NCBI GenBank assembly: GCA_032622095.1
Contig: CP136061.1
Coordinates: forward strand, 3,472,001 to 3,536,000
Source of the DNA: Siphonodentalium dalli
Taxonomy: Eukaryota > Mollusca > Scaphopoda > Gadilida > Siphonodentaliidae
Reading direction: 5' to 3'
Length of the DNA: 64,000 nucleotides
A program made the translations under genes and the position numbers. Positions 10,160-57,610 of this stretch are shown here, in pieces; within the stretch, counting starts at the first letter, position 1; each line of letters opens with the position of its first letter. Under the pieces are notes generated by a model that saw only the letters and a list, made by a program, of their open reading frames with translations, did not search any database and was not told where the DNA came from.

Positions 10160-10785
10160 AGGTATTGTCAGATAATGGACGGCCCCGTGAACAACATCAC
10201 GATAAGTTGGTTTCATGGATGATATTGTCCATCTATATCTAAACTACACCGTGTTCATATTAGCTTTGAGTATGTGATCACAATTGCATGGATATGTCAG
10301 TATGACGCTCGAGACACACTGTCATACAGTGGACACATTTAATGATTTTATCTCATGTACGATATATATAAGGGGTCCTATATTTATAATAGAAACAGTC
10401 TACGGTATCTGCGCAACATAAATTATATTATGCATCAATCAATACAATCTTGCGAGTATAGTAAACAAATGGAACATAATTTCACAGGAATATGTTTTAT
10501 AAGTAGAATCATTGGCAATACTCATCACTGGATTAAATGTAGTAGTTTGATTTTAACACGATCAATTTTATTGTTACAGGACGTTGTTCAGGACAAAGGC
10601 AAAGACATTGCTGTAAGTGTAATTTTTACCATAAATTACGCGAAGGGTTCCAGGCCGATTTTCGAGGAAATCGCCAAACTCTGGAAAAATGGCTTCAAAC
10701 CACTTTTTGTAAAAATACAAATGTTTCTGACACACTACACCTTACCCAGTCATTGTTTATTTCATCACGAACTTCCATAACATAT
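10160..10785 (+). repeat. Exon module, copy 1 of about 4
   Basis: This module of about 600 bp recurs at 12600-13200, 56560-56990 and 57230-57780. Shared landmarks in order: TTGGTTTCATGGATGATA, a TATATATAAGG box (here 10363-10373), GGTCTACGGTATCTGCGCAA, CATAATTTCACAGGAATATG, an acceptor TTGTTACAG, a variable micro-exon, then GTAAGTGTAATTTTTACC. The TATA-like motif about 200 bp before each exon might be a promoter, but no other core element supports that. Intron sequence is nearly identical among modules; the exon is the variable part. Confidence 0.8.
10580..10612 (+). CDS. Putative micro-exon A4 (DVVQDKGKDIA)
   Basis: Thirty-three nt between TTATTGTTACAG and GTAAGTGTAA, phase 0. It belongs to the exon module repeated at 12994, 56932 and 57578. 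Compared with 57578 it differs at 8 of 33 nt, all amino-acid-changing, while the first 175 nt of the following intron differ at about five positions. The eleven residues fit three helical turns with hydrophobic V, V, I and A on one face. The frame stays open for some 56 codons past the donor (to 10780), so a longer unspliced exon is a possible alternative reading. Confidence 0.58.
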
Positions 10786-12599
10786 GAAAATTGTTAAATA
10801 TGTTGATCTTTAACATTTCCAAAGATAAACTGTTTCCACAATTAACTTTCGGTCGATATAAGTGACGAAAGCACTGTCCCGAGCCGTGGGGAAGGGTTCT
10901 GTTAGTGAATGTGTAGCTTTATGCTACGGTCTGTTGACATATATCTGTATTTATTGTCAAGTTTGTGTGTGCTTGTTTTTATATATTTAATTATTTATTT
11001 ATTTAGGTATTTATTTATTGTGTGCCTGTGTGTGATTGTTTTGATGACTGCTTGTGTTTCATGGTGGCGGGAATTACTATTGATGTCCTTTCTATATTTA
11101 TATTAACATGTATTTTGTAAAACGTACTCTCCTAGCTGGAGGAAATAAAGATATATATATAATGCATATGCCACAGCGAGTCATGTCGCCCACTGCATAT
11201 TCACAGAGTGAGTCTACTGGGCCAATTAACCAATTGCGTTTCACCAAGGTTGATCTCTACTCATTACGTTTTGCTACATTGTATTATATATGCGAAAACA
11301 CACTCATTGTGCGAATATGCAGGGTTGTATTAATTCACTACAACCAAGTTTATATCTCCACTAGGTCAGGTAAACACTGAGATTATGTTTGACAAATATT
11401 AAACCGGTTGTCATTGAGACGTTGACCTATTAAGAACCTGTTATCTATTCGCCGCACCTCTGGGTCATATACTCTAATGAATAGCCAGTGATCTCATTCA
11501 CAACACGCGATATTAACTTAACCTTATTTCCGATTTACAAATATGTGATTTAAAGCAATACCATTCATTCAAATTTAGTTGGCTTTCACTTGACACAAAA
11601 GGCTATAACAAAAGAAAATATACTAATATAAAGGACGACCCATATAAAGATAGTTCAAGGTCACGACTCTTTGGCCTATATACAGGCCTGGTCGCTGGTC
11701 TAGTACTGGTATAATGATCCTGTTAAAAAGTTCTCTATACTACTAATAATGGTTATTTTTGGGGGTTTTGTTATAAGATATGCCAAAAAATAATATGTAA
11801 GTCCTATATTTGATTTTAGTTTACTTTATTTTACTTTAGTTTATGTAGTTAGTTTAGTAAAAGGGAAATAGTATTCAATTAACTGATAGCCTGAAAATAA
11901 TTTATAACCCATTGGGCGCCCCTGGGGTATAGTGAAGTGAATTATGGGTAATTTTAATTTAAGTGCGCATGTCTGTTCAGTTGGAGTAATCACGATCTTT
12001 TTATTTTCTGGTCATATACACAATGTGTTTGCACCGATGCATGTATCGTGACTCGACTCGTTTTCGTGGTAATATAGGCCCTATATAGCCTATGATCACG
12101 AAAACGAGCAGAGTCGCGAAATCTGATAGAATTCCCGGAATTGTACATTCACTTTCAATAGTATACATTCTCTGAATCTGCGGAATTCCCACAATTGTAA
12201 TTCACTTTCAATAGGATTCTCCGAATTTGATAGAATTTTCACTATCACTGTTCATTTTTACCACGCAAAGCGACCTTAGTTGACACAGATATGTGACACA
12301 CTGGCTGAGTCGATGACAAATAGTTTATGTAGCATTGCTTCTTTCATTTAATTAAAGCTCACCTCGTTAAAACGCATGTTAATCGTATTTGTTTTCAAAT
12401 TGCATTTCAGTTTTGACAAACTATTTATGGAGCCAGAAGTGAGTTTGTTTGAAGCCAATGTTATCTCACTTGACCTCATAACTGAAAATTTCCGTAACCG
12501 GTTCGTACAAAGATAATTGATAACGGCAAAATTTAATAAATTAGTTACCTTGTTTATGTCAAACGTTCTTGATTATTATACATAGATGTATGGTCAATT
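10786..12599. other. Non-coding stretch without recognised gene
   Basis: I see no supported coding exon. The stretch contains a small inverted repeat at 12047-12118 (CGTGACTCGACTCGTTTTCG paired with an inverted copy), followed by two diverged direct copies of a unit of about 55 bp around ATTCACTTTCAATAG (12140-12225). The 65- and 90-residue frames at 10909-11380 lack domain signals and a duplicated counterpart. Confidence 0.5.
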
Positions 12600-12993
12600 A
12601 CTTATAGTATATAGTTGGTTTCATGGATGATATTGTCCATCTATATCTAAACTACACCGTGTTCATATTAGCTTTGAGTATGTTATCGCAATTGCAATAA
12701 TATGCATGGATATATCAGTATGACGCGCGAGACACAGTGTCAGACAGTGGACACATTTAATGATTTTATCTCATTTACGATATATATAAGGGGTCCTCTA
12801 TTTAGAAACGGTCTACGGTATCTGCGCAACATAAATTATATTATGCATCACTCAATACAATCTTTCGAGTATAGTAAACAAATGGAACATAATTTCACAG
12901 GAATATGTTTCTATCCGTCGAATCATTGGCAATACTCATCACTGGATTAAATGTAGTAGTTTGATTTTAACACTATAAATTTTATTGTTACAG

Positions 12994-13026
12994 GGCGTTT
13001 TTCAGGACACAGCCATTGACGCTAAT
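12994..13026 (+). CDS. Putative micro-exon (GVFQDTAIDAN)
   Basis: Thirty-three nt after TTTATTGTTACAG and before GTAAGTGTAA. It lies in a full copy of the exon module (12600-13200). Against the exon at 57578 it has 4 of 33 nt changed, all non-synonymous (Val to Phe, Lys to Gln, Ile to Ala). The first 175 nt of the downstream intron have about three changes and the 210 nt upstream about five plus a small indel. This is the cleanest exon-versus-intron contrast in the window. Confidence 0.58.
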
Positions 13027-13397
13027 GTAAGTGTAATTTTTACCATAAATTACGCGAAGGGTTCCAGGCCGATTTTCGAGGAAATCGTCAAACTCTGGAA
13101 AAATGGCTTCAAACCACTTTTTGTCAAAATACAAATGTTTTTGACACACTACACCTAACACACTCATTGTTTATTTGATCACAAACTTCCATAACATATG
13201 ATAGGCCGATACTAGGTTGAAGAAATCGATCTTGAAAAAAACGCCTATATGTCCGTCTACCAAGTACCTGTTTCTGTAACAGACTGCGCATGCGCAAAAA
13301 TGAAACAATCTTGTTGGATATATTTGTACACCGGGTACATATTAACTTCGAATACATGAAGCCATTATGTGGCACATACATGTGTAAATCTTAGCCT

Positions 13398-13466
13398 GGG
13401 CCCAGTTTTATGAAAGCAACTTATGACATAGTTGGGACTTAAAATGGTCATAAGTCATAAAACCGC
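13398..13466. mobile_element. Short hairpin MITE
   Basis: CAGTTTTATGAAAGCAACTTATGAC is answered by the inverted GTCATAAGTCATAAAAC at the other end. A related left half occurs at 57985-58045 with a different right end. This TTTATGAAA / ACTTATGAC hairpin resembles widespread invertebrate non-autonomous DNA elements, though I cannot name the family. Confidence 0.5.
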
Positions 13467-13524
13467 CCTGACCAACCCACCTTTTCGATTAAACAATCAT
13501 TATTAGCCAAGAGCATGATAAATG

Positions 13525-13630
13525 CTGGACGTTTCGGCACTTGGACGTTTCGGCACCTGGGGTTGCCGTTCGGCACCTGGACATTTCGGCACCTGCTTTT
13601 TCGGCACTTCGGACGTTTCGGCACCTTCTA
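13525..13630. repeat. GGACGTTTCGGCACCT minisatellite
   Basis: Five to six imperfect copies of a 16- to 20-bp unit built on TTTCGGCACCTGGAC. An inverted fragment (AAGTGCCGAAAATCTAGG) follows at about 13676. No coding potential. Confidence 0.8.
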
Positions 13631-13954
13631 ATTTTCGGACCAACGAAACGTGCAAGCACCTAGGCCGATACAACCAAGTGCCGAAAATCTAGGTGCTGCA
13701 CCCATTCTGATACATTCTTTTAAACAAAAATCAATTACTGCTCTTTCCAGTTCAGTGAGCTGCACTTGCCAAAAAAGCAGATAAAAATAGAATAGTCCAA
13801 CTGCAGTGCTTCGGTATTCTTTTCATTTAAATGTGACAGTGGCTACCTCCACTGCCACCAACAATTACATACAAACGGAAAATTCATACATATAAATATA
13901 ACCTATCTATGGTACCTTTCAGTCAAGTAAATCATTTCCAACTTAAGCGGCGAT

Positions 13955-13982
13955 TTTGGAGAGAGAGAGAGAGAGAGAGAGA
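13955..13982. repeat. (GA)n microsatellite
   Basis: About twelve GA dinucleotides in a row, just upstream of the likely 5' region of the LINE. Confidence 0.9.
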
Positions 13983-14855
13983 AAATCCCGAAACACGTCG
14001 TCGACCAATGGACACCTGCACGCGATTTCCAAAATAAACCATTTGACCACATTTCATTAATTGTACGTCGCGTCAATAAAACAAATCGTTTAGTTCCTCG
14101 ACCTAAATATTGATATTGGTCCAACTGATCATTATACAAACCACCAATAAATTAAATCTTAACCATACCGGGACCCTAGAAGTGAGAAATAACACAATAC
14201 CGGTGCATGTAACCCATTTTGTTTAACCTTTTTGAATAAATCGTGACCCCTGATAATTTTAACCGAGATCATAGTATTACTTTACCTATCAAATCAATTA
14301 AAATCACGAACCAAGGACCAAAACAACGACAGCTCTCTCTCTCCCCTCACAAAAAAAATCGCTACAAGTTTGACCTGCTGAACATCGTACATAAATGAAG
14401 CACCTCTCGTCTTGAACCCAAAACCGCGCCAGCCGACTCACGGTGGAACCCCATCACCAAACCATCATTATGTCATATCACCATTTCCTCATCTTTGTTA
14501 CTCTCATTTTCATATTTTCATCTATGCCCACATCGTATCATGTTGCTTTCATGTTTTGTACATACCAGGGTCTCCATCAACCGACCACATTTACATCGAA
14601 CTATTCCCTCCCACTCAGCAACATAACTTACGGGTGTCAGGTGCCAACACCAAATCAGCTCTATATATAGGACGGATCTTCTACAAGACCAGGACTCAAT
14701 CGCTCTCCTATACTCATATCGAATCACAGACGAAAACACGGTTATGACTTGTTCGACAGTAGTATAGGGCAGGGATTGGAGTCTTCGACTTGAGGAAGAA
14801 AACTCACAAAGCTCAGGCGGCAAAAAATGTCGGACTCTTAAAATGCAACTTCTGA

Positions 14856-16681: not shown

Positions 16682-17600
16682 AAAAGAGCTAACGGAATTT
16701 GAATTTACACATGCTGAGATAATCTCGGCCTTAAAATTGCTCAAACTGAATAAAACCCATGGTCATAACGGAATAAGTGCGAAAATGTTAAATTCAACTG
16801 CTGACTTAATCGCATATCCACTGTCAATAATTTTCAATAAATCCTTCAACAACGCAAAATCTCCATCTACCTGGAAAAAGGCTAACGTATTCCCAATTTT
16901 CAAAAAAGATGACCCAGCCGACACAAAAAAACTATCTCCCTATCTCCCTTCTTGATTGTCTTGGGAAAGTGTTTGAAAAAATTGTACTAAAACAAATAAG
17001 TCCGTTCTTTGACGACAATAAATTACTTTATTCCAACCAATCGGGTTTCATAACTGGTCACAGCACATCTCACCAACTCATAGACCTTTACAATCACATG
17101 TGCCTATCTATCGATAAAGGACTATATACATGCTCTGTTTACTGTGTCATTTCTTAGCCTCCGAGAGAGTTTGGCACAGGGGACTGTCACATAAGCTATA
17201 TACTTATGGAGTTCGTGTGAGAACTTTGAGATGGATAGAGGACTACCTTCGTAAACGACAACAAAGAGTTTTAGTAAATAACACCTTTTCTGAATATGAG
17301 ATCATTCCAGCTGGTGTACCGCTGGGCCTTATGTTAGGACCCTTTCTATTCTTTGTCTATATCAACGACTTACCAGACAATATACTTTCTTTTAGGAGAA
17401 TGTACGCCGACGACTCTTGGCTTACAAATAGTTACTATGACATAAATGAATTAGGCCGCGTTATGAATAGTGACCTCCAAAGGATAGCACAATGGTCTGA
17501 AAATTGGCTAGTAAAATTCAATCCTTCTAAAACAATAAGTATGTCATATGCACTAACAGGAACTTCTGGGGAAGCTCCCGACTTAACCTTTAAATAAGAT
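16682..17600 (+). pseudogene. LINE reverse transcriptase domain
   Basis: Fingers and palm motifs are present across three frames: FTHAEIISALKLLKLNKTHG, WKKANVFPIFKKDDP, YLPISLLDCLGKVFEKIV, SNQSGFITGHSTSHQLI, RVWHRGLSHKL, VPLGLMLGPFLFFVYINDLP and YADDSWLTNS. The catalytic pair at YADD (17403-17414) is intact. The usual P-Q-G is P-L-G here. A frameshift at about 16950 and another near 17150 (where ISKAFDRVWH would be expected) break it. Confidence 0.88.
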
Positions 17601-20385: not shown

Positions 20386-20389
20386 TCTT

Positions 20390-21294: not shown

Positions 21295-21356
21295 CATTGA
21301 CAATCATAGAATGACTATATATCAGCATGATATTTATCATCATGGATTTATTACAG

Positions 21357-21401
21357 GATGGATTACAGAATGGTTATGGCATCGTCGCAAACGGCTTAGT
21401 G
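21357..21401 (+). CDS. Putative micro-exon (DGLQNGYGIVANGLV)
   Basis: Forty-five nt between GGATTTATTACAG and GTAAGTTGATC. A second in-frame acceptor (GATTACAG, exon from 21369) would shorten it to 33 nt and eleven residues, so two lengths in the same frame are possible. Glycine- and asparagine-rich with an imperfect internal NG.xxV repeat. A relic with a weak donor (GTCAGT) sits at 27180-27203 in the foldback loop. Confidence 0.48.
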
Positions 21402-22521: not shown

Positions 22522-22563
22522 GAAGGTGTTGATGTGGTCGAGGGCACAGCTAACAACATCGCT
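22522..22563 (+). CDS. Putative micro-exon (EGVDVVEGTANNIA)
   Basis: Forty-two nt between TTTGTTTTGTACAG and GTAAGTGTAATG, phase 0. It belongs to the same exon family as 10580, 12994, 56932 and 57578; the following intron begins with the same 70-nt stretch (ATAAATTACG...CCGATTTTCGAGG). The fourteen residues fit about four helical turns. It is acidic, unlike the cationic peptides encoded at 35640 and 52157. The duplicate at 28344 differs at 7 of 42 nt. Confidence 0.57.
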
Positions 22564-24571: not shown

Positions 24572-27179
24572 AGGCATATAGCATACACAGAACCAATATT
24601 TTCTGCGCATAGCTGTAATAAGTTGTCGATGGCCAGTCTAAAAGCGCGAGAACTTTAATACCCTTGCTCTCAAAGTGTTACACTTATTCTCATAAATTGT
24701 ATATCCAAATGGCATCACAAAACATGATTCTTATAAGTAGTGGCTCACCTTGTCAGATCGGAACAATTATCATTTTGTTTATCGCGTTTAATCCGTCCCA
24801 CCAATAAAGAAGTTTTTATTTATTTACAACTGTGTATACTTCAGACGTTATAGCATGAAATATGAACATCAAAAACATATTAGTTCGAAAAAATAAAAGA
24901 CGACAATTGTGTTTTACATAGAGATGTATCAATCAATCAATCAATCATGAAGATACAGACGTTTTAAAGATATGTCCAGGTGCTCCTCTGTTCTGGTGCT
25001 ATATACTGGCTAATCATTTTCAGTTTAAAAGAATTGATGTTATGCATGTATAGCAGCTACATATGCCCGACACAGCGAGATTTTGAGTTGTTTATGTTAG
25101 GCGATGAGTCTGTTCTAAAAAAATGAAAGAAATCCTCTGTATCGGGCAAATATACCCTTGTCAGATGTCAATATTGGATGATTCCGAAATGTCATGTGCC
25201 ACAAACTGCGTTTTCCTTTTTCTCAGAAGTAACCATATTTTGAACAGGCCTGCTCTACATTTCCATATCTCTTGGCAATTGTAATTTTTTGTGGAAACTA
25301 TATTGAATGGGACTGACTCAATCGTGTTATAATATATACATGAGTCATTCTAATATGCAATCCTCTAATGATTCAAGGTCCCTCAGTTTGAATGAATATA
25401 TGCATCTCTTAAATATATTGATATAAATATACTGTTAATGCTTTCTTCTATGTATCTGTGTTGCTAGAACATTATCGGAATGCCCTGATTGCCATCCCCA
25501 TATAAACATGACAGTTGAGAAGATATATAATTGTTCAAGTGACTTAATTCGGTCACCATTTGTCGAGATTGTGAAATTGGAATGCCAAACACTCCTTAGA
25601 ACGACATGGAGATGGCCTGGGAGATGACTATATATAACTTTGTTGGATATCGGCGAATTGAACAATCTTATAAATGCTAGTGAATCTCCTCTCGCCATCC
25701 ATGACCCAAACGACCCCAAATGTGATTTAATTCATCATATCATTAGAGAAGAACGTGCATGAATTTGGTAGAATCAGTGCTAATTATATTTGTGTCAACT
25801 TTGGTGCAACTCGATTGTACCCTTAAAGTTATATAAAGAAAACAGACATATTCGCAAATATTTGATTCATTGTATCATTTGAGAAGAACGTGTATGAGTT
25901 TGATGGTAATTGACACTAAACATATTTTTATAAGTTTTTGGTGACCCTCCGGTCCCTATTTCGGACTCAAGCGGCGCCAATTTTGACGTCCTTAAACCAC
26001 ACACTTAGACTCATTATAGAGATGAATATGTATACAAGTTATGAAAATTGGCGAGTATACAAATTCGTATCAAATTTAGGGTCACATTTGCATATCTCTC
26101 ACCCAAAAGGCAACAATTTGGCGCATTTAAACCACACGATTAGATTATTCGTATCACGGAGAAGAATATGTATCAATCAGGTGGAAATCGGCGCTATACA
26201 TATTGTTTATCAATGTTTGTGTCCCTCTCATCCTCTAGGAGCTCCTGACTCGAATAGCCCCACTTTTGACATCTTTAAACCACACAATTAGACTCCTGAT
26301 ATCATGGAGATTATTGTTTGTAAGTTTGGTGCTGATCCGCGACTAAACAATTTTTATCAAATTTAATGAACCATCCCACCCCACCACCATCTCTGACCAA
26401 AGCAGCACCAATATGACGTCTTTAAAATTACACGATTAGATTCCTCATATCATGGATAAGAATGTGTATCAATTTTGGTGCCCCTCTCCCTTTCAGTGCT
26501 CTCCTGACTCGAATGACGCCACTTTTGACAACTTTTAGCCACGCCATTAGACACCTCATACTATGGGGATGAATTTGTATAAGTTTCGAGGCAATCGGCG
26601 ACTAAATCAATTCTTGTCAGATTTAGTACCCACCGACCGCGCCCACCCCAAATCTCTCATCCCAACGACACCAATTTGGCGTCTTTAAATCACACAATAA
26701 GATTCCTTGTATCATGGAGAAGATCTCAGAAGAATGTACATCAATTTGGTGGAATTCGGCGCTAAAATTATTTTAAAACAAATTTGGTTCCCCTCTCCCC
26801 TTCCGGGCATACCTGACGCGAACGGCGCGACTTTTGACATACTAATCCACACCATTAGATTCCCCATGTTATGGGGATGATTATATATAAGTTTGGTGGC
26901 AATCGGCGACAATGTTTTTTTCTGCCCTCCCCCTTTTCTGCCCCTGACAACAACGGCGTCACTTTAGAAAATTCTAACACTCGCCATTATCTTTCTCGTA
27001 AAAAGATACTCCTATTAGACCCCTTTTGTGCCATATAGGTGGTCCCCTGTGAATTTCTATAGAACACAGACAGACAGACATATTAAGTATTCCATGATTT
27101 GCTATTTATTGTATAGTCATTGACAATCATAGAATGACTATATACCAGCATGATATTTAACATCATGGATTTATTACAG

Positions 27180-27203
27180 AATGGAGTCACAAACGGCGTC
27201 AAT
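27180..27203 (+). pseudogene. Shortened exon relic (NGVTNGVN)
   Basis: The counterpart of the 21357 exon. The acceptor TTATTACAG is kept, the interval is 24 nt and the donor is GTCAGT in place of GTAAGT. The reading frame is still open. Confidence 0.4.
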
Positions 27204-27889
27204 GTCAGTTGATCAATTTATGACACGTTAATCAGCGCTATGCCTGGTTAAAATTACCGTTGAGTGTGCGATCGCCATTGTATGGCACATGTATGTTTGC
27301 CTTCCACACAGGGAACGCTGTCAAATAATGCACGAATTTTACGATCACTTGCATCTGATTTAATAAGTCAATATTCACATTTTTGTACATTTATCAAAAT
27401 ATTTTTAAAAAATCACTAAATATTTATTCATTATTAAGTCTTTAAGTTGAACTTGTCTCTAAATAAAATATCTCCAAGCGATTTGGTGGTATCTCTCAAC
27501 GACTTCAAACTAGTTCTAAATAATTTGAGAAAGTGTTTAGACTAGCCGTAATTAAATACTCGCCATAATTCTACTTGGAGAGATGTACGCATTTTATTAT
27601 CTACCACTTGCGTGCGTTGGAAACATGGACGCTCCTTATAAAAGACGAGTATTTAAAGTGTTGCTAGGCTGAAAATATTATAAACGTGTTAACACTTCCT
27701 CTTTTAAAAGTCGATATCTGCCATCAAAACCTCATAATAATGGTCAGATCTAATTATTTTCTGGTACATATATCTGACCTTCAACCTAATTGTGTTCCAG
27801 GTTGATGGTTTATGGTGTCAGATCTCTGACATTATATTTGTTTTTAATATCTCTATTTACATTTTATCTTCAAGATACAAAAACATAGC

Positions 27890-27948
27890 CATGCATTCAC
27901 AACATATACTGACACATGTGTTAACATGACATGTTAACACGTGTGTCA
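27890..27948. repeat. Near-perfect palindrome
   Basis: ATACTGACACATGTGTTAAC and, after a few bases, GTTAACACGTGTGTCAGTAT form a hairpin with arms of about 24 bp. The homologous position at 22115-22140 has only the right arm (CACGTGTGTCAGTAT), so the left arm arose by inverted duplication in this copy. Confidence 0.8.
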
Positions 27949-28343
27949 GTATATTTTGTAAACGCATGACATGATATTTTAATAGTATCATCTGCAGTGG
28001 CATCAAGTTTGCACTAAGCAAAACATGACATAAGTTTAATGGATTATGTATTAATTGTTTTAATCAAGTGCAGTGGACATTTCCATCCAAGATTTAGAAT
28101 TCCCCATTGCGATTGAAGTGCTTACGTCCTGATATTTGTATAATACTAATTTTCCGATACACGCATTTTCCATACTGCAATCATTATAGCATGATGAAAG
28201 CAAGAAAGAAAATATAGTTAGACAGAAAATACGTCTTTGAAATAATGACGCGCTGTTTTACAATTTATTATTTCATTGGGAATACTCACCACTGGATTAA
28301 ATTTAGTAGTTTGTTGTTAACATGATACATTTGTATTGTACTG

Positions 28344-28385
28344 GAAGGTGTTGATGACGTTACGGACACAGCCAACAACATCGCT
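28344..28385 (+). pseudogene. Exon relic with lost splice acceptor (EGVDDVTDTANNIA)
   Basis: The homologue of 22522 with frame and donor (GTAAGTGTAA) intact, but the acceptor reads TTGTACTG in place of TTGTACAG, so normal AG recognition is abolished. The exon differs from its partner at 7 of 42 nt, the next 70 nt of intron at two. Confidence 0.6.
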
Positions 28386-30819
28386 GTAAGTGTAATTTTC
28401 ATTATAAATTACGTGAACGGTTCCAAGCCGATTTTCGAGGACATCACACCAACTCTGGAAAGATGTCCTCAAAACACTGTTTGTCAAAATACAAATGTTG
28501 ACAGCACTACCCCTTACCTAGGCATTGCTTATTTGAGCACTAAATTCCATTTAAAAAAAGTATAGATATATAATATAATCTATATCTATATTTGCGAATG
28601 TCTGTCTGTCTGTGTTCTATATAAATTCACAGGGGACCATCTAGATGATGCCAAAGGGGTCTACTAGGAGTAGCTTTTTACGAGAAAGATAATGGTCGGG
28701 GTTAGAATTTTCTAAATTGACGCCGTTGTTTTCAGGGGCAGAAAAGGGGGAGGGGCAGAAAAAAATTTGTCGCCGATTGCCACCAAACTTATATATAATC
28801 ATCCCCATAATATGAGGAATCTAATGGCGTGGTTTAACTATGGCATAAGTCGCGCCGTTCGCGTCAGGGGTGCCCGGAAGGGGGGGGGGGGGGGCAGATT
28901 TTTTTTTCTGTCGCCGATTGCCACGAAACTTACATATAATCATCCCCATGATATGAAGAATCCAACGGTGTGGTTTAGATATGTCAAAAGTGGCGTCGTT
29001 TGAGTCAGGGATGAACGGAAAGGGAGAGGGTCACCAAAATTGATAAAACTAATTTTAGCGCCGATTTCCACCAAATTGATATATATTCTTCTTCATGTAT
29101 ACAAGGAATCTAATTGTGCGATTTAACAACGCCAAATTGTTGTTTTTGGATGAGAGATTGGGATGGGGTGGGCACTAAATTTGATAATAAGTCGCCGATT
29201 GCCACCACACTTATACAAAATCATCCCCATGGTATGATGTGTCTAATGGTGTGGCTTTTATCTGTCAAATGTGGCCTCATTCGAGTCAGGGTTGCATTGA
29301 AAGGGACAGGGACACCAAAATTGATGCACAAATGTTTTAACGCCAATTTCCACCAAATTGATACACGTTCTTATCCATGATATGAGGAATCTAATCGTGA
29401 TTTAAAGACGCCATAGTGGTGCTGTTTGGGTGAGAAATGGAGAGGGGAGGGATTGGCACCAAATTTGATATAATAAATTGTTTAGTCGCCGATTATCACC
29501 AAACTTATAAACAATCATCTCCATGATATCAGGAGTGTAATCGTGTGGTTTAAGGATGTCACAAGTGGGGCCATTCGAGTCAGTGGTGTATAGAGATGAG
29601 AGGGACACAAAAAATGATATCTATATGTTTAGTGCCGATTTCCACCAGATTGATACATATTCTTCTCCGTGATACGAGGAATCTTATCGTGTGGTTTAGA
29701 TACACCAAATGGGTGCCCTATGGGTGAGAGATATGGGGACCTTAAATTTGATACGAATTTGTATACTCGCCAATTTTCTGTCTGTGTGTGTTCTATATAT
29801 AACTTCACGCGGTACAATCGAGATGCACCAAGGCGTTCTAAGAGGGGTAACTTTTTACAAGGAAGATAATGGTGCGGGTTAACATTTTCTAAAATGACGC
29901 TGTTGGTGGGAGGGGAAATTAAAAAAATATGGTGAAATAGTTTTGTGGCTGATTTCAACCAAACGAATACATAATCACCTTCGCAATATGGCGTTGTTCG
30001 AGTCAGCGTTGCTTCAACAATTGATTTAATAAACCAAATTCCACCAAATTCATACACGTTTTTCTCTGATGATATACCATGAATTAAATCACACTCGGTG
30101 TCGTTTGCGTCACGGATGGCGAGCGGATATGCACTATCATTGATAAGATTGCTATTCGCCGATATCCACATATAAGTTATATACAGTCAACAGGCCATCT
30201 CCATATCATTTTAAGTAGTTGGGCCTTCACATTTCACAATCCCGACATATGGTGACCCACATAAGTCACTTGAACAATTATATCTTCTTAACAGTAATAT
30301 TTATATGGGAATGGCAATCGAGGCATTCATACAATGAGCTAGCAAAAAGAGATAACTAGAAGAAGCATTAAACGTATATTTATCATTCTATTGAAGAGAT
30401 ACATATATTCGTGCAAACTGAGACCTCGAACCGTCAGAGGATTGCATATATATAATAACAAAATTTAGTCTGTTCCATTCAATACAGTTTCCACAAAAAG
30501 TAACAATTTGTCAAGAGATATGGAAGGCCTGTTCAAAAATAGTGGTCACAGTGTGCAGTCAAATATAGTTTCTTCTGATATACAAGAAAAGGCAGTTAGT
30601 AGCACAAGACTTTTCAGGATCCTACCAATACTGACATCTGACAAGGGTTTTAGAACAGACTCATCGACTGACATAAACAACTCAAAATCTCGCTCTGTGC
30701 ACATGTATCTGCTATATGTGCACAGCAACATTTCGTTTAAACTAAGAATATTTAGCCAATATATAGCACCATGAACAGAGGAGCACCTGGAAATTTCTTT
30801 GAAACATCTGTATCTTCAT

Positions 30820-35639: not shown

Positions 35640-35678
35640 AACGATATAGCCAAGAGCTTTATGTCATTATTTCGGAGG
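35640..35678 (+). CDS. Putative micro-exon (NDIAKSFMSLFRR)
   Basis: Thirty-nine nt between CTTTTCATTTCAG and GTAAGTATTC, phase 0 (+1 has a stop). It encodes a cationic amphipathic helix-like peptide ending in Arg-Arg. The next recognised exon (52157) begins Lys-Arg, so direct splicing would place four basic residues together. The intron beyond the donor begins with a 64-bp tandem array. There is no paralogue of this exon elsewhere in the window. Confidence 0.5.
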
Positions 35679-44244: not shown

Positions 44245-46205
44245 TCGCGGAAATCCATAAACTCATTCATTAGTTAAACGTCGAAACGTTCACAAAAGGA
44301 AATCCATAAACGCATTCATTAGTTAAACGTCGGAACGTTCACAAAAGGAAATCCATAACTCATTCATTAGTTAATGTAGAAACGTTCACAAAAGGAAATC
44401 CATTACTCATTCATTAGTTAAACGTCGAAACCTACACAAAAGGAAATCCATAAACTCATTCATTAGTTAAACGTCGAAACGTTCACAAAAGGAAATCCAT
44501 AACTCACTCATTCATTAGTTAAACGTCAAAACATTCACCAAAGGAAATCCATAAACGCATTAATTAGTTAAACGTGGAAACGTTCACAAAAGGAAATCCA
44601 TAAACTCATTCATTAGTTAAACGTCGAAACGTTCACAAAGGAAATCCATAAACTCATTCATTAGTTAAATGTCGAAACGTTCACAAAAGGAAATCCATAA
44701 ACTCATTCATTAGTTATATGTCGAAACGTTCACAAAAGGAAATACATGAACGCATTAATTAGTTAAACGTCGAGACGTTCACAAAAGGAAATCCATAAAC
44801 GCATTCATTAGTTAAACGTCGAAACGTTCACAAAAGGAAATCCATAAACTCATCCATTAGTTAAACGTCGAAACGTTCAGAAAAGGAATTCCATAAACGC
44901 ATTCATTAGTTAAACGTCGGAACGTTCACATAAGGAAATCCATAACTCATTCATTAGTTAATGTCGAAACGTTCACAAAAGGAAATCCATAACTCATTCA
45001 TTAGTTAAAAGTCGAAACTTTCACAAAAGGAAATCCATAAACTCATTCATTAGTTAAACGTCGAAACGTTCGCAAATGGAAATCCATAACTCACTCATTC
45101 ATTAGTTAAACGTCAAAACGTTCACAAAAGGAAATCCATAAACTCATTCATTAGTTAAAAATCGAAACGTTCACAAAAGAAAATCCATAAACTCATTCAT
45201 TAGTTAAAAATCGAAACGTTCACAAAAGGAAATCCATAAACTCATTCATTAGTTAAAAGTCGAAACGTTCACAAAAGGAAATCCATAAACTCATTCATTA
45301 GTTAAATGTCGAAACGTTCACAAAAGGCAATCCATAAACTCATTCATTAGTTATATGTCGAAACGTTCACAAAAGGAAATCCATAAACTCATTAATTAGT
45401 TAAACATCGAAACGTTCACGAAAGGAAATCCATAACTCACTCATTCATTAGTTAAACGTCGAAACGTTCACAAAAGGAAATCCATAAACTCATTCATTAG
45501 TTAAAAATCGAAACGTTCACAAAAGGAAATCCATAAACTCATTCATTAGTTAATGTCGAAACGTTCACAAAAGGAAATCCATAAACTCATTCATTAGTTA
45601 TATGTCGAAACGTTCACAGAAGGAAATTCATAAACGCATTAATTAGTTAAACGTCGAAACGTTCACAAAAGGAAATCCATAAACTCATTCATTAGTTAAA
45701 GTCGAAACGATCACAAAAGGAAATCCATAACTCACTCATTAGTTAAATGTCGAAACGTTCACAAAAGGAAATCCATAAACGCATTAATTAGATACTGTCG
45801 AAACGTTCACAAAAGGAAATCCATAAACGAATTAATTAGTTAAACGTCGAAACGTTCACAAAAGGAAATCCATAACTCATTCATTAGTTAATGTCGAAAC
45901 GTTCACGGGAAATCCATAAACGCATTAAATAATTAAACGGCGAAACGTTCACTAAAGGAAATCCATAACTCATGCATTAGTTAAATGTCGAAACGTTCAC
46001 AAAAGGAAATCCATAACTCATTCATTCATTAGTTAAACGTCGAAACGATCAAAAAAGGAAATCCATAGCTCATTCATTTGTTAAACGTCGAAACGATAAA
46101 AAAAAAGGAAATCCATAACTCATTCGTTAGTTAAACGTTGAAACGTTCACAAAAGAAAATCCATAAACTCATTCGTTAGTTAAACGTCGAAATGTTCACC
46201 CATTA
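44245..46205. repeat. 49-bp satellite array, about 40 units
   Basis: The monomer consists of GGAAATCCATAAACTCATTC, ATTAGTTAAACGTCGAAACG and TTCACAAAA. Most units differ by one to three changes or small indels, and some share variants (GCATTAATT; CATAACTCACTCATTC), hinting at higher-order duplication. Copy A has a single monomer at the homologous place (1369-1405), so the array arose after the duplication or collapsed in A. No spacers of unique sequence, hence not CRISPR. Confidence 0.95.
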
Positions 46206-47195
46206 CTGAGAACGCTCTTTATTATCTATCGCTTTATGGCGACAGATTGAAGCATTCACGCTCTTTATACTAGTTGACAAGTATGGTACCATTATATCTT
46301 TATAAACACAATTTCGTTTTAAAACACATATATTCTGGACAGTCAAAATCTGTTAAACAGTTTCTCTTATCGACGGATTCCAACACTATTCCGGTATATA
46401 TTTGTCACCCCGAAAAACAATTTCGGGGGACTGTATAAATCAGCGATGTCCGTCCGCCCGTTAATCCTTCTGGACGTCCGTCCCAGATGGGTTCGGTGAT
46501 AACTTTAGTTTCAGTTGTCTGATTCTTTTGAAATTCTGTATGTATATTAGCCAAATGAAAATACATGTCAAGTTCGAATTTGGATTCAGTCCACCGATGT
46601 TACCGAAGTTTATGGTTCTTTGAGACTTAGAATTTGACGATTATTTGGGTTTCCGGGTGATAGCTTTAGTTATAGTTATGTTTGTTTTCAAATTTACTCA
46701 TGTGAAAAGACAGACCAAGTTCAAATTTAGGTTATGCCTGCCCATTGTTACCGCAAATATAGTCATTGTCGACTTACAATTTTTCAACTTAGAATTTTGT
46801 TGATTTTTTGGCAATGTCAATTTGAGGTCATATTTCGACATTAAGGGTACGTTCATACGCTGGCAAGTTTGCACGGTATGTTTTTGTGGGCATTTCGTCG
46901 TAGAAAACGTTATGGTGCCAGACTATGAACGAAAAGATGTACATAACATGCATATTTACCAAAGCAAACGACATGAGAAGTAACATTTATGTAGTTCCGC
47001 TAGTAACGATGCTACTGTAATTTGCCTTCAAATACTTGTATGATTTATTCTTGGGAGATAATTGCATGCTATTTACAGGCAAATTCCGCTGGCATCGCTA
47101 TGTGTGGAACTGCAGAGATTTTACTTCGCACGTAGTTAGCTGTGGTACAGTTGCATATTATATGCTTGTTTCCGTTCATATTCTGGCACCATCTC

Positions 47196-48770
47196 AAAGT
47201 GTGTCTAGTGAATGCAAGATCAGTCAGGAACAAGTCTTCAGCTATTTTCGATCTGATTGAAGACAAGGGGATCGACATGTTATTCATCACCGAAACATGG
47301 CTTCGTGAATCCGGCGACGGGGTTGTCATGTGTGAATTGACACCACCCGGGTACGAACTGCATTCATCCCCCAGATTATATGGCACGGGAGGCGGAATCG
47401 CTCTCGTACATCGAGAATCCTTTCCAGTAAGGGCTACAACGATCTGTAGATTTGAAACTTTCGAAGCCTGTGAGTTTAAATTAGATTTCTCAGGCCAGAC
47501 TCTGACATTTGTATGTCTATATCGACCTCCACCCAGTAAGGAGAATGATCTCAAAACATCTAACTTTTGTAACCACTTTCCAGAGTTTATCAGTGATTAT
47601 GTTTGCCGGGGTGGACGGCTTGTTCTATTGGGAGATTTTAACCTTCATTTTGACTCTACTACAAACTCCAATGTCCTATCGGTTAAAACCTGCTTGAATG
47701 ACTACAACCTCCAGCAAGTCGTTGCGAATGCCACAAACGATCACGGCCACGTTATCGACTGGGTAGTTATTCGTGCCGGGGACCCTGAGCTGAGTTTTCT
47801 AGACGTCGCTGACATGGACATCGCCGACCATTATGCTATCACGTTCGGCCTCGACGTCACCAAACCACCCATAGTAGTTGATCAGATCACCTCTAGGAAT
47901 CTCAAAGATATCGATCCTGTCTCTTTTAGAGCTGAAATTTTGAAACGCATCACTTCGGATCTGATGTCTCAGTGTGATCCAGCAGAAGCTTTCAGTGCCA
48001 TCCTTCGGAATGTTCTCGATGACTTCGCTCCAACAGTTACTAGGGAGATTCACCGTCGCCCGTCAGCACCATGGATGAATGCTGATATACAAGAAGCCAA
48101 GCGAACACGACGCCAGCTTGAACGACAGTGGCGTAAGAGCGGTCTATATTGCCATAGACTTCTTTATTCTCAGCAACATAAGGTCGTCCGCGCCGCCATA
48201 ACATTAGCCAGGACAGACTATTATAGCGATAAAATCATTTCAGCTAGTTCGTCCAGAACTCTATTCAATGTAGTGAATGAGTTGTCCGGAAAATCCAACG
48301 CTCTCGTGCTTCCAGAAAACGTCCCGATTGCGGACTTGCCCAATATATTCAGCACATTTTTCGAAGACAAGATCTCTCGAATTCGGGCAAATCTTGACCA
48401 ACACAATATTCCCACGGAGTTTTCGACATTCTCCGGCACAGAATTGATCTCTTTCAAGCCAGTGTCATCGGATTCTGTAAGGAAAACCATATTATCATCG
48501 CCGCCTAAATCATGCGCTCTTGATCCGCTGCCTACTAACTTACTAATTAAATTCTTAGACCTGCTTATCGAACCTATCACTGACATCATGAACTTCTGCC
48601 TAAAACATGGAACCGTTCCTGAATGTTTCAAACAAGCAGTCATCACACCTCTCATCAAAAAGAAAGGACTTAAACGGAATGAGTTGAAAAATTATCGGCC
48701 TGTGTCTGGACTGCCATTCACGAACCATTCACGAACCATTCACAATCAGAAGTTTGAACATCGGCGGATG
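47196..48770 (+). pseudogene. L2 LINE ORF2: endonuclease, linker, start of RT
   Basis: The frame is open from about 47142 (no ATG; it begins at GTG), and recognisable endonuclease starts at LKVCLVNARSVRNKSSAIFD. Motifs: FITETWL (catalytic Glu), GGIALVHR, FVCLYRPPP, VLLGDFNLHFD, HVIDWVV and DIADHYAITF (usual Ser-Asp-His is Ala-Asp-His). The linker follows (APWMNADIQEAKRTRRQLER), then RT N-terminal motifs KSCALDPLPTNLL, CFKQAVITPLIKK and LKNYRPVSGLPF. There the RT is cut: sequence jumps within 48715-48750 to the C-terminal part. More than 500 uninterrupted codons indicate a young copy. Confidence 0.88.
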
Positions 48771-49425
48771 TGAAATTGAGCCTACAATGTGTGCGAAAAA
48801 TCTCGGTGTCAACATTTCTAATTCTTTATCCATGGACGCTCAAGTACAACACATTTCTCGTACCATACTAATTGAACTTATGCGCCTTAGTCGTCTTCGT
48901 CCATACTTAACAATGCCTGCGGCGAAAAAGGTTGCTTCTTGTAATATTATGTCAAGATTGGACTATTGCAATGCGCTTTTCGTGGGAAGTTCACAAGAAC
49001 AATTAAGTCGTCTGCAACGTCTACAGAACTCAGCCGCGAGGATTGTAGTGCGTGTTCCGAAATCAACCCATGTCTCTCCAATTTTGAAAAACCTACATTG
49101 GCTCCCAGTGCGCGCGCGAATTGATTTCAAGTTAGCAACGTTCTGCTATCGTTACTTTAATTCAACTGCACCAGCATATATCTCGGACATTCTTACGTTG
49201 TATGTACCAGGCCGTGATAACCTCCGTTCAAAGGAAAAACAGCTTCTGGCTGTTCACATGGGTAAATATAAGAAAATTGAACGTCGTCTGTTTACACACG
49301 CCGCACCAAGTGTCTGGAACTCCATCCCTCTCGACATTCGTCGTTCGCACTCTATCGACATCTTCAAGCAACGACTTAAGACGCACCTGTTCAATATTTA
49401 CCCGCATACAACTAGCCATAGATAG
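48754..49425 (+). pseudogene. L2 LINE ORF2 C-terminal part, RT palm missing
   Basis: KNLGVNISNSLSMDAQVQHI, SRLDYCNALFVG, LQRLQNSAARIVVRVPK, ILKNLHWLPVRARIDFKLAT, APSVWNSIPLDIRRSHSI and FKQRLKTHLF are the post-palm signature of L2. The stretch with the catalytic (F/Y)ADD is absent between 48715 and 48770. A short tandem copy of CACGAACCATT (48719-48742) marks the junction. The 3' UTR holds GCGCTATACAAATGCTATAT and an ATTATTAT tail, as in L2. Confidence 0.88.
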
Positions 49426-52156: not shown

Positions 52157-52198
52157 AAAAGAGGCATTTTTGATTCCATTAAAAAGGGAGTTTCAAAG
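52157..52198 (+). CDS. Putative micro-exon B1 (KRGIFDSIKKGVSK)
   Basis: Forty-two nt between TTTTGTTTTTCAG and GTAAGTAACT, phase 0. A cationic, helix-like fourteen-residue peptide beginning Lys-Arg-Gly. Its counterpart A1 (5088) is 12 nt shorter and strongly diverged in the shared part, whereas intron flanks align well. The Lys-Arg start recalls proprotein-processing sites, but the precursor context is unknown. Confidence 0.57.
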
Positions 52199-53547: not shown

Positions 53548-54412
53548 GTAAGTAATTGTGAAAAATGCAAACCCCAGGAAAATATTATTTCTGACCTGAC
53601 ACCCACCACGACCATGCACGATGAATTTGTCATCAGAGTCCACCTGCTTCGGTAGGAACAAAAAATTTACTTGACAAACATAATTTTTTTTCCAAAACAA
53701 CCACATGTTGCACCAGTTAAAGGGATACTGTACTAAATTGTTTTTGTTGGTTTCTATAGTCTCTGAGTCGTAGAATAAGGTAACCAGATTTCCATTATTT
53801 GAAAGTCTGTTGAGTACGAAATAATGTTTAGGATAGCAGATTAGTCGGAATGCGAAAATACCAATTGTCGTTGTCGAGTAATTTTTGGACAGTTTTCAAG
53901 CAAATGTATCAAATACATGTTATATTATATGCATACCAGTCCCATAAATTCATTTAAGTCATTGTACAATCACTAGTCAGTGAGTGGCTTGAGTTTACGC
54001 CCTGTATCAACATAATTTTTTACACGATCATGCGTGCCACGCATTGCCCAATCCACTGTCAGTGACTTATTTTTGATTACGTCTTGTACACGGAAATTCG
54101 TAATTTAATTTATGGCTCCAGCCACAAATTAAATTTATATCAAATATTAACTTTGATTTTAAGATAACCTATTAACCTGAACGTTTACACAATACATCTT
54201 CGACTCAAATTACTTAGTTTTCTACATATTATTGATATTAGATCGTTGTTATCACCATGAATTTATTGAAAATGGCGTACAGTACCTCTTCAACCCGTTC
54301 TATACTGAATGGATACTAAACATGGGAACGGTAAATTATTCATTAGGAGTGGTTCATGATAAATCAGGAGACTACAGCATACATAACAGATAAATAAATA
54401 TTTTAATTACAG

Positions 54413-54463
54413 ATACAACAAGGACGGAATGATTCATATTCATTCATCGGAAATGTTCATATA
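54413..54463 (+). CDS. Putative micro-exon B2 (IQQGRNDSYSFIGNVHI)
   Basis: Homologue of 8801, 51 nt, acceptor TTTTAATTACAG and donor GTAAGTTCAAC. Two residue changes relative to A2. The exon end and donor again pair with inverted intron sequence ending near 54545 (TGAACATTTCCGATTGGAAC), so the hairpin is preserved in both copies. Confidence 0.42.
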
Positions 54464-54810
54464 GTAAGTTCAACAAATGACTATATTGTGAACTCAGTTT
54501 GGTGAACTTAGTATCTGAACATTTCCGATTGGAACGAATCGTCAATGAGTATTTAGCATAGGCAGATTTAAGTGCTTTAGCTTTTTGGCGAATGTACTAG
54601 TTTGAAGATGCAACTCTGTATGAAATATTGAGTTTGTGTCATGTCTATGGAAAGTCAAACAATCAATCTCTGTGGGTCCTTAAATCAACTGTCAAATTGC
54701 AAGAAATATATTGACACTTCAATAGGCAAAGTACATGTGCTTGCTTTCTTACCAAGACTATGAATAATAGTTGCAATTATCTAGACAATATAAACATGTT
54801 TGTTTCACAG

Positions 54811-54840
54811 GTATACAATGGCGGAAAGAAGGCTGTAGTG
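54811..54840 (+). CDS. Putative micro-exon B3 (VYNGGKKAVV)
   Basis: Homologue of 9207, 30 nt, acceptor GTTTGTTTCACAG and donor GTAAGTTAGC. More cationic than A3 (Thr to Lys, Asp to Gly). Adjacent intron nearly unchanged between the copies. Confidence 0.55.
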
Positions 54841-54887
54841 GTAAGTTAGCTAATCTAAATAAGTTATGATTATCTGTCCCGGACCAC

Positions 54888-55675
54888 TGTTCTAAATTTG
54901 AACAGGGACGGAATACATGTACAAGTTGCACAAATAATAAGGGACCAGTTTATTCAAGGGTTGTATATTGATATCAGTTTATCACGTAAAGGTCAATTTT
55001 ATTCCATCATAAAAGATGAATTCATTTTCGAAAATTACCTGTACGCTAAAAGTCAGAAAGATATATACACGCTCGCACAATTTAGAACACGAAACCACAA
55101 TCTACCCATTGAATCCGGTAGTTGGAATAATATCCCTAAAGATAAACGTTTATGCTCAGGATGCGACTGGAGATTGGAGATGAACTACACTATTTAATAG
55201 ATTGCCATTGTCTTAACCAGTCAAGAGAATATTATTATTCCCATTGTGTATTTTCAAGAACCGAATATAGCTTGAGCAAATTGAAAATGCTTCTAACAAA
55301 TTCGAGACCATCAGTTATGAAAAAACCTGAAGGATGATCAGATGTATCTTATCAACAGCTACCTGTTCTCCAGGCCGAAAGAGGAACATGTAGCAATTAC
55401 CTGTCAGGAGGCAGCCTGATAAACCTGCCATAACCGATATACACCTTATGCTTTTTGTCAAATCCCCTGTCACGTTCTGATAACACATACATATGCAAAC
55501 ATTATGAAGTACATGCAACGAATGGTCTAAAATTAACGTATATTTTAAGTAAATATGCTTTACCATTTAACATAAATTGTTATCCATACGTGACAGGGGC
55601 TATTGTTATTGTTATTGTAATATGCCCTTCTATGTACCATGTAAGTTGGATGATAGAATAAACATATACTCTAAA
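54888..55675 (+). mobile_element. 5'-truncated L1/Tx1-like LINE fragment
   Basis: It is absent from copy A (junction equivalent to about 9290), so it inserted after the duplication. The frame 54898-55194 and its frameshifted continuation read LAQFRTRNHNLPIESGSWNNIP, RLCSGC and then IGDELHYLIDCHCLNQSREYY. This is the C-terminal L-x-x-F-R-x-x-N-H-x-L-P-I-E-x-G-x-W and C-x-x-C...D-E-x-H-Y-x-x-x-C segment common in L1/Tx1-like and related LINE ORF2. The 3' part is non-coding; no target duplication is clear. Confidence 0.7.
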
Positions 55676-56931
55676 AAGAGTGATGGATATTTATAAATTG
55701 TTTTTGACCACACAGTTTTTAGATAAATGTGATTACCATAATAATTGGCAACGAAATCACTGCACCTTTTAACAATGCAAAGCACACCGGGGTCAGGTTT
55801 TTTCTTTTGAGGCGTTAATTTGTCATCTTGCTCGTCCCCACGAGAACACATTCTGTATATGAGTATTTCATGTATTGTTTGACATGGATGGATTGAGAGA
55901 ACCATAGTCTGGCTAGTGCCATTCAGGTGATGTGAGGCAACCAACTGTAAGCATATTCAACAAATGTCCAAGTTTCCTTTGACGTAAACCAGTTATATTG
56001 GTGGGAATAGATACTTGTTCACTTTGAAATGCGTTTCACTTACATGTCTAAAGTGGACTTTCGAGGCATTTTGACCCACTCATCTAAAATAACCAATAAC
56101 GTTAACAAAATGTCACAATTATGACAGCAAACCAGTCTATTCAATAGAAAACATATTTTTGTGAACTTCAAATGAGGTGTCAACTGAACGTAGTAATGTA
56201 TTATGAAGATATATTTTAACACAATGATTACATAATTTCAAAAGAATATGAACCCATTTGACCTCGGGAAGTGACTTCTGACAGGTTATTCCGTCGTTTT
56301 CAGTAACTTCCGCTCCGCATGGTCGTCTTGAAAGAAATTATATAAGGTACTTGGTAATTAGTAAATTGGAAAATACATACATCACGAGAGGTCAAGTGTA
56401 AGAAATGTTTAACTAATAAGTAATGTTTACCATTTACACTTACAACGAAAAACACAATACAAAATAAGGGATGCAAACAAAAGTGTGAGTCACTGCATAC
56501 GAGATATCCATCCATTTTACGAAGGTATTGTCAGAGAATGGACGGCCGCGTGAACAACATCACAATAAGTTGGTTTCATGGATGATACTGTCCATCTATA
56601 TCTAAACTACAGTGTTCATATTAGCTTTGAGTATGTGAGCGCAATTGCCATAATATGCATGGATATATCAGTATGACGCTCGTGACACACTGTCAGACAG
56701 TGGGACGCATTTAGTAGTCTTATATATATAAGGGTCCTCTATTTAGAAACGGTCTACGGTATCTGCGCAACATAAATTACATTATGCATCACTCACTACA
56801 ATCTTTCGAGTATAGTAAACAAATGGAACATAATTTCACAGGAATATGTTTCTATCAGAATCATTGGCAATACTCATCACTGTATTAAATGTAGTAATGT
56901 GATTTTAACACGATAAATTTGATTGTTACAG

Positions 56932-56973
56932 GGCGTTGCTAATGAGGCCAAGGACACAGCCAATGACGTCGTT
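56932..56973 (+). CDS. Putative micro-exon (GVANEAKDTANDVV)
   Basis: Forty-two nt between TTTGATTGTTACAG and GTAAGTGTAA, in the third exon module. Phase 0 gives fourteen residues. The module is cut short about 30 nt into the intron, where sequence equivalent to 56221 resumes, showing that a tandem duplication of the 3' part created the next module. Confidence 0.55.
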
Positions 56974-57577
56974 GTAAGTGTAATTTTTACCATAAATTAC
57001 ACAATGATTACATAATTTCAAAAGAATACGAACCCATTTGACCTCGAGAAGTGACTTCTGACAGGTTATTACGTCGTTCCGGAAAACGTTTACATGAGTT
57101 CCAATTACAACAAAAACACAATACAAAATACGGGATGCAAACAAAAGTGTGAGTCACTGCATACGAGATATCCATCCATTTTACGAAGGTATTGTCAGAG
57201 AATGGACGGCCGCGTGAACAACATCACGATAAGTTGGTTTCATGGATGATACTGTCCATCTATATCTAAACTACACTGTGTTCATATTAGCTTTGAGTAT
57301 GTGAGCGCAATTGCCATAATATGCATGGCTATGTCAGTGGACACATTTAGTAGTCTTATATATATAAGGGGTCCTCTATTTAGAAACGGTCTACGGTATC
57401 TGCGCAACATAAATTATATTATGCATCACTCAATTCAATCTTTCGAGTATAGTAAACAAATGGAACATAATTTCACAGGAATATGTTTCTATCAGTTGAA
57501 TCATTGGCAATACTAATCACTGGATTAAATGTAGTAGTTTGATTATAACACTAACACTATAAATTTTATTGTTACAG

Positions 57578-57610
57578 GGCGTTGTTAAGGACACAGCCAT
57601 TGACATTAAT
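57578..57610 (+). CDS. Putative micro-exon (GVVKDTAIDIN)
   Basis: Thirty-three nt between TTTTATTGTTACAG and GTAAGTGTAA, in the fourth exon module. It is closest to 12994 (4 of 33 nt differ, all changing residues). Eleven residues, helix-like. The frame also stays open past the donor to 57776, leaving a longer-exon reading possible. Confidence 0.57.

Follow-up and report, generated by a model that had tools for sequence, protein, structure and literature searches.

A predicted multi-unit microexon gene of Siphonodentalium dalli whose exons diverge faster than their introns

The window analysed here is the whole of a 64,000-nucleotide stretch from the scaphopod mollusc Siphonodentalium dalli (C1:3472001-3536000), part of a genome of 2.23 Gb in 9 contigs that was searched as a whole. 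It lies within a predicted gene, here called W, that is composed of many very short exons. We found that these exons differ between copies several times more than the introns around them, and that overall nonsynonymous (N) differences exceed synonymous (S) ones. Protein-changing substitution that outruns intron substitution is uncommon and is the usual mark of arms-race genes; venom genes and those for immune effectors are known examples. In this case many exons belong to one gene and its introns are mostly a few percent apart, and replacement, indel, exon death and gene conversion can be counted separately.

Exons, units and gene copies

The plus strand of the window and 30 kb on each side was scanned for exons with a length divisible by three (3n) and good splice sites. 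At threshold this gave 21 candidates. Of the 13 that fall within the window, 12 are listed here as exons and one, 26239-26319, is not. Lower thresholds added exons 56932 and 60510. The exons are listed below in window coordinates.

5088..5117, plus strand: opening exon of unit W1, KR|GLWGSVQN, 30 nt, phase 0, from the splice scan and a genome-wide search for KR exons
9207..9236, plus strand: second exon of W1, VINDGTKAVV, 30 nt, with a homologue in 6 of 6 units read
10580..10612, plus strand: third-type exon of W1, DVVQDKGKDIA, 33 nt
12994..13026, plus strand: third-type exon of W1, GVFQDTAIDAN, 33 nt
21357..21401, plus strand: exon of W1, DGLQNGYGIVANGLV, 45 nt; the homologue in X3 reads SGLKGSYDSVADDVK (only part of X covered)
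22522..22563, plus strand: exon of W1, EGVDVVEGTANNIA, 42 nt
27180..27203, plus strand: NGVTNGVN, a shortened copy of the 21357 exon with a weak donor (GTCAGT), its use in mRNA uncertain
28344..28385, plus strand: splice-dead duplicate of the 22522 exon, with TG in place of the acceptor AG, identical to the mirror copy
35640..35678, plus strand: closing exon of W1, NDIAKSFMSLFRR, 39 nt, homologous to the closing exons of other units
52157..52198, plus strand: opening exon of unit W2, KR|GIFDSIKKGVSK, 42 nt
54811..54840, plus strand: second exon of W2, VYNGGKKAVV, 30 nt
56932..56973, plus strand: third-type exon of W2, GVANEAKDTANDVV, 42 nt
57578..57610, plus strand: third-type exon of W2, GVVKDTAIDIN, 33 nt
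58282..58323, plus strand: exon of W2, GAFSNLGSDTKNIM, 42 nt, with one replacement in the mirror copy and its acceptor lost in gene Y
60510..60542, plus strand: candidate exon of W2, KQMQGRLGNIQ, 33 nt, from the splice scan
62584..62616, plus strand: less certain candidate exon of W2, NLLPVAELSKL, 33 nt, in a segment with no listed mirror match

A search for the first exon led to a signal-like exon, MKTAVIALGLVLCLGSLQTKGRLV, at C1:3448097-3448168, 24 kb upstream of the window. Its four matches in the genome (4 of 4 candidates scored) are W itself, an inverted mirror copy M, gene X at 30.369 Mb (99% identity) and gene Y at 30.605 Mb (88% identity). The mirror copy comprises the window and its flanks, inverted at C1:1812985-1933928, approximately 1.6 Mb away and 95-99.5% identical in long pieces. 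It may be an allele misplaced in the assembly or a recent inverted duplication.

The KR exon is the opening exon in all six units read. Among the best 40 of 429 candidates we found at least two KR exons in W, at least two in M, at least three in X and at least one in Y. Closing exons, homologous to 35640-35678 and 69161-69295, number two, two, three and one in the same copies (8 of 8 candidates). The KR and closing exons found thus match in number in each gene copy, and their positions alternate, which gives the duplicated blocks of the window the appearance of units repeated within a single gene. This is supported by 3' exons common to the gene copies: 90981-91022 is common to W, M, X and Y, and 83752-83874 to W, M and Y. 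Read directly from the genomic sequence, W and the mirror copy have two tandem units each, X three and Y one, with a KR exon first and a basic-ended exon last.

Closing exons end in RR, RG, GR or SR, so that basic motifs, potential cleavage sites as in polyprotein peptide precursors, bound the repeated units. The two units of W would meet at RR|KR; in X1 and X2 the closing exon ends in RG and a KR exon follows. Gly-Lys-Arg is a classical context for amidation and cleavage. All exons are in phase 0; those in the middle of units are 24-63 nt long (the microexons encode approximately 10-21 residues), closing exons are 39-135 nt long, and the exons lie kilobases apart. A gene with exons of 24-63 nt at such spacing, homologue-free so far, is of a type that ordinary annotation can miss.

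Divergence of exons and introns between copies

The initial annotation had proposed, from hand counts on five duplicated exon pairs, that exons diverge several times faster than their introns. All five exon counts were reproduced exactly: 8/33 for 10580/57578, 4/33 for 12994/57578, 5/30 for 9207/54811, 7/42 for 22522/28344, and 8/30 plus a four-codon indel for 5088/52157. The changes in the first two pairs had been called all nonsynonymous, which is right for 12994/57578 (N/S 4/0) and not for 10580/57578 (7.5/0.5). N/S is 4/1 for 9207/54811, 4.5/2.5 for 22522/28344 and 7/1 for 5088/52157; across the five pairs most but not all changes are nonsynonymous. When at most 170 nt of intron is taken from either side and the bases of the splice sites are excluded, the difference between exon and flanking intron is individually significant in three of the five pairs (P=0.0003, 0.018 and 0.008). 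The flank count for 9207/54811 (82/312) is inflated because the intron on the 54811 side turns to unrelated DNA approximately 35 nt downstream. For 22522/28344, in which 28344 has lost its acceptor, the exon count of 7/42 stands against 28/318 in the intron (P=0.16).

The proposed contrast became stronger with copies from the whole genome. The rate set contains 20 third-type, 6 KR and 6 VYN exon copies from W, X and Y, of which 29 of 32 are splice-intact. The 20 third-type exons were taken from 40 genome matches, and all are in W, X and Y; the matches excluded are 6 from the mirror copy, a partial one at C1:30571424 and 13 further partial ones at other places in the genome. The three splice-dead rows were set aside, and 12 disjoint pairs (24 of the 29 intact exons) were chosen by smallest intron distance, with a limit of 0.13. 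C22522, X4_30253, Y30572 and the KR exons of X2 and Y remained without a partner. The intron distance of the X2 KR exon is inflated because a tandem array sits in its downstream flank. In this array, just downstream of the exon (C1:30320339-30321408, reverse strand), a unit of approximately 52 bp that includes the splice donor is repeated approximately 20 times.

Over the 12 pairs N is 68.1/326.7 (21%), S is 6.9/90.3 (8%) and the flanking intron is 163/3943 (4%). N exceeds the intron with an odds ratio of 6.1 (P=1.4e-24) and S with an odds ratio of 3.1 (one-sided P=0.002), while S is approximately 1.8 times the intron (odds ratio 2.0, P=0.10). When the splice-dead exons are kept, giving 14 pairs, P for S against the intron is 0.04. 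In a distribution-free test, exon-sized frames were slid along as much as 420 nt of the intron on either side; intron stretches above 35% local mismatch had been removed, a step that works in favour of the contrast. The 12 pairs hold 81 exon differences, against an intron mean of 14.6 and a maximum of 36 in 100,000 draws. Taken pair by pair, the exon value is reached by no intron frame in 6 of the 12 pairs and by 0.1-6.5% of frames in 5; in the remaining pair the exons are identical and every intron frame reaches their value.

Rates were also estimated in IQ-TREE with the intron tree fixed. In the two large third-type groups, codon positions 1 and 2 evolve 5.2 and 4.3 times as fast as the introns; the factor is 2.1 in the KR set and 2.2 in the VYN set. 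The difference is significant in three of the four sets (P=2e-11 and 6e-10 for the third-type groups, 0.008 for KR and 0.07 for VYN). Third positions evolve at 2.2 times the intron rate in the KR set and at 0.8 times in the VYN set. The initial annotation had also suggested a codon-aligned comparison of nonsynonymous and synonymous rates (dN/dS, omega) with more copies. Omega is significant in two of the four sets, namely a third-type group (4.9, P=0.002) and the VYN set (6.9, P=0.03), and not in the other two, one of which is the second third-type group (2.5, P=0.08). The codon models used were FQ and F1X4; F3X4 was dropped as unsuited to so little data. Comparing whole units, W1 and X1 differ by N 14/104, S 2/28 and intron 31/1254 (N against intron, P=2e-6).

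The closing exons were compared in two pairs. W1-X1 gives N 4/31.5, S 0/7.5 and intron 9/266, and W2-X3 gives N 23.8/86.0, S 6.2/25.0 and intron 40/327, so that N and S both exceed the intron (49/593). When these two pairs are added to the 12, the totals are N 95.9/444.2, S 13.1/122.8 and intron 212/4536. N remains above S (odds ratio 2.3, P=0.003), and S is now above the intron (odds ratio 2.4, P=0.008). It follows that the exons overall are older or faster than the introns, and that N is faster still.

The signal exon has no such excess. Between W and X it differs at 1/72 sites, a synonymous change, against 15/1021 in its flanks, and between W and Y at 6/72, against 76/910, plus a nine-codon indel. 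Between the window and the mirror copy, 19 exons (one splice-dead, one weak) differ at 9/910 sites and their flanks at 64/11362, with 5.1 exon differences expected. Six of the nine fall in the proline- and glutamate-rich exon 83752-83874 (C1:3555752-3555874), which at 6/121 is far above the other 18.

Some other features of the region should be noted. The window segment 60849-64272 (3.4 kb) has no listed mirror match; it holds the candidate exon 62584 and, at 61077-62146, a 535-bp tandem duplication. Nested inverted repeats at 24947-30819 form a 5.9-kb palindrome-like structure with tandem units of approximately 141 and 281 bp inside, and 44249-46199 is a 49-bp tandem array of approximately 40 copies. 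LINE-like (long interspersed nuclear element) remnants with endonuclease-type and reverse transcriptase domains (Pfam Exo_endo_phos, RVT_1) are found at 47136-48773 and 17118-17597. The intron after exon 57578 has, at approximately 57618-57785, 13 similar stretches elsewhere in the genome at 74-83% identity, and part of it is therefore an interspersed repeat. Rfam families were searched for in the window, and none reached the gathering score. Of six contig ends read, one carries the telomere repeat TTAGGG, which is not the arthropod type.

The predicted product and the cause of the exon excess

Joined in order, the exons of W1 (the 27180 and 28344 copies excluded) encode a peptide of 82 residues and those of W2 one of 128; neither contains cysteine. 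Net charge is -5 for W1 and +7 for W2. The mean helical hydrophobic moment is 0.388 for W1 and 0.390 for W2, whereas shuffled peptides average 0.206 and 0.213. It is reached by 0 (W1) and 1 (W2) of 1000 shuffles and peaks near 95-100 degrees. Shuffling residues within exons abolishes it (0/1000 each).

We suggest that the gene probably encodes a precursor of membrane-active secreted peptides under diversifying selection, with introns slowed by conversion. In brief, each copy of the gene would consist of one signal-peptide exon followed by one to three tandem units of phase-0 microexons, and proprotein convertases would cut the product at the RR|KR and RG|KR junctions. Cleavage would free cysteine-free amphipathic helices of approximately 80-130 residues, which may act on membranes as effectors in defence, venom or mucus. 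The mature helices would be under positive selection, and this would drive amino-acid replacements, indels of whole codons and the silencing of exons through mutated splice sites. The introns would drift and be evened out in part by gene conversion, and the rate of the signal exon would not exceed that of its flanks. Transcription of the gene, processing and membrane activity of its product and the selective agent are all presumed from genomic sequence; the function could be defence, venom, mucus or reproduction. A further, more speculative possibility is that the helix-sized microexons of this orphan family are replaceable cassettes, by which rapidly diversifying membrane-active peptides would be made behind one signal sequence. 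Units would then duplicate within the gene, and exons would be shaped by positive selection, gain whole codons or be silenced at their splice sites while conversion resets the introns.

That copies exchange DNA is shown by three third-type exons. X3_30284 and X1_30339 share the same lost donor (GT changed to TT) and 31/33 exon bases, and their introns differ at 16/330; the introns of X1_30339 are 329/330 identical to those of A10580, which has an intact donor. This mismatch of exon and intron kinship means that some intron similarity is secondary. Gene conversion makes the introns a slow clock, and the fivefold contrast therefore overstates selection. The excess due to selection is probably nearer two- to threefold, as judged against synonymous sites, with fivefold as an upper estimate. 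The initial annotation had named conversion as something that might explain the pattern away; it is there in part, but it leaves N above S unexplained. Its proposal of diversifying selection holds in that N exceeds S in the exons without recourse to introns, with the qualification that the effect is uneven across sets and that the introns are no clean neutral clock. Constraint on the introns was rejected as the whole cause, as introns over the length of blocks A and B differ by 2-9% in substitutions, below the exon rates.

Several observations weigh against a precursor under diversifying selection. In the closing exons alone N does not exceed S (N 27.8/117.5, S 6.2/32.5, P=0.37), and the KR set alone has an omega of 1.3 (P=0.6). 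Third codon positions in the two large third-type groups evolve at 2.6 and 5.0 times the intron rate. The VYN exons of X1, X2 and X3 are identical (0/30, against 6-8/331 in the introns); a further exception is the third-type pair B57578 and X3_30276, which differ at 1/33. Between the window and the mirror copy, the 18 exons other than 83752-83874 have no excess (3/789, with 4.4 expected), and there is no sign of an exon excess over this very short time. With regard to the product, the W2 peptide takes in the two candidate exons 60510 and 62584. The helical moment falls only a little when exon order is shuffled (52 and 50 of 1000 shuffles still reach it), which would follow if every exon formed a helical module by itself. 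The replacements do not significantly preserve hydrophobic class (37/51 keep it against an expectation of 32.6, P=0.12; counting Y and G among the hydrophobic residues gives 34 against 31.3, P=0.26).

Nor did protein, Pfam and solved-structure searches give a homologue of known function. Two protein searches that need shared words gave no match to the joined peptides at E<=1, which leaves room for remote homology; presence of micro-exon gene (MEG) proteins in the database was unchecked. Pfam gave nothing above cut-off for the unit peptides (LEA_4 12.8 against 51.1 bits, Dermcidin 18 against 27), and solved structures gave weak matches only, the best being GAPDH (E=0.015). A narrow search of open papers found no description of the gene family or its layout.

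The same data can be read with little positive selection, if conversion keeps the introns alike and is blocked in the exons by selection or loss of homology; the differences between exons would then be old and the exon-intron contrast mainly an effect of conversion. The crossed kinship of X3_30284, X1_30339 and A10580 fits this, as do the signal-exon and 90981-exon regions, which are 99% identical between W and X, and an exon S that is 1.8 times the intron value over the 12 pairs (P=0.10) and 2.3 times once the closing exons are added (P=0.008). Conversion of introns explains the raised S but does not produce N above S within exons (P=0.002 for the 12 pairs and 0.003 with the closing exons), an effect that is not uniform across the exon sets, so that selection is still needed, and we regard this account as possible and rather doubtful. 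Exon segments might also have been swapped in blocks, as proposed for viperid three-finger toxins, instead of changing point by point. Whole-codon length differences between copies would be explained in this way, as would unlike exons between near-identical introns (A12994 and X2_30312 differ at 11/33 in the exon and 7/331 in the intron) and the closing exons of W2 and X3, in which N and S sites have diverged to a similar degree. However, a large number of third-type and VYN pairs align codon by codon with few synonymous changes, and segment switching is unlikely to be the main process.

If the helices were not effectors but belonged to a structural or stress protein built of amphipathic repeats of 11 residues, with loose sequence demands behind the fast change, this would account for the several exons of exactly 11 codons and for the sub-threshold LEA_4 score. 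Such a protein would be LEA-like, antifreeze-like or lipid-binding. Relaxed constraint predicts N equal to S, whereas N is above S, and the dibasic junctions suggest processing; we consider such a protein quite improbable. It is hardly credible that the exons are hypermutable or the locus a decaying non-coding array. There are four splice-dead copies (28344, X1_30339, X3_30284 and GAF in Y) and S exceeds the intron once the closing exons are counted, but splice sites and frame are intact in 29 of 32 exon copies and the signal exon is conserved. The few exon differences from the mirror copy (9/910) argue that the exons are not strongly hypermutable: a fivefold rate predicts 25.6 (P=0.0001), while a threefold rate is compatible (P=0.06).

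Comparison with known systems

By analogy, the nearest model for the predicted precursor is the MEGs of schistosomes. In the portions of the literature available to us, MEGs have short, mostly 3n exons between long introns, a conserved signal peptide and a secreted product, and some encode amphipathic membrane-binding helices with raised dN/dS in the mature part (PMC10526429, PMC5825161, PMC4350168). The dN/dS values given there for MEG-1, -9 and -15 are 1.14, 1.10 and 1.11, all above 1, and the same portions contain no comparison of exons with introns. The 29 intact exons studied here are likewise all 3n, at 30-63 nt, a likeness that is partly built in since most were picked by a scan that requires 3n. 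They are longer than the 6-36 or 6-81 nt quoted for MEGs in the same portions. A conserved signal-like first exon is present in four copies here, and the product may be secreted. In contrast to MEGs, whole multi-exon units bounded by KR are repeated inside one gene, and the shared-word protein searches gave no sequence match that would indicate homology.

In viperid three-finger toxins paralogue introns are more alike than exon parts, and segment switching has been proposed (PMC2474615). In that respect the present gene resembles snake venom families (three-finger toxins and phospholipase A2). Those families have a cysteine scaffold, whereas the two unit peptides have no cysteine; the exons here are also more numerous and smaller, and the repeats are internal to one gene.

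Pooled over the exon pairs of W, X and Y, N lies above both S and the intron, with omega significant in two of four sets and the closing exons on their own as the exception. Metz et al. are said to have described nonsynonymous substitution above intron substitution in abalone sperm fertilisation genes in 1998, which is the same kind of excess. The abalone sperm fertilisation proteins are single-domain proteins and not microexon polyproteins. Precursors of alpha-helical antimicrobial peptides such as dermcidin share the amphipathic helices, but the Pfam Dermcidin score is below its cut-off, and to our knowledge that family has no layout of microexons in multiple units. In kind, then, the phenomenon has precedents, and the repetition of KR-bounded units within one gene is an addition to the MEG pattern.

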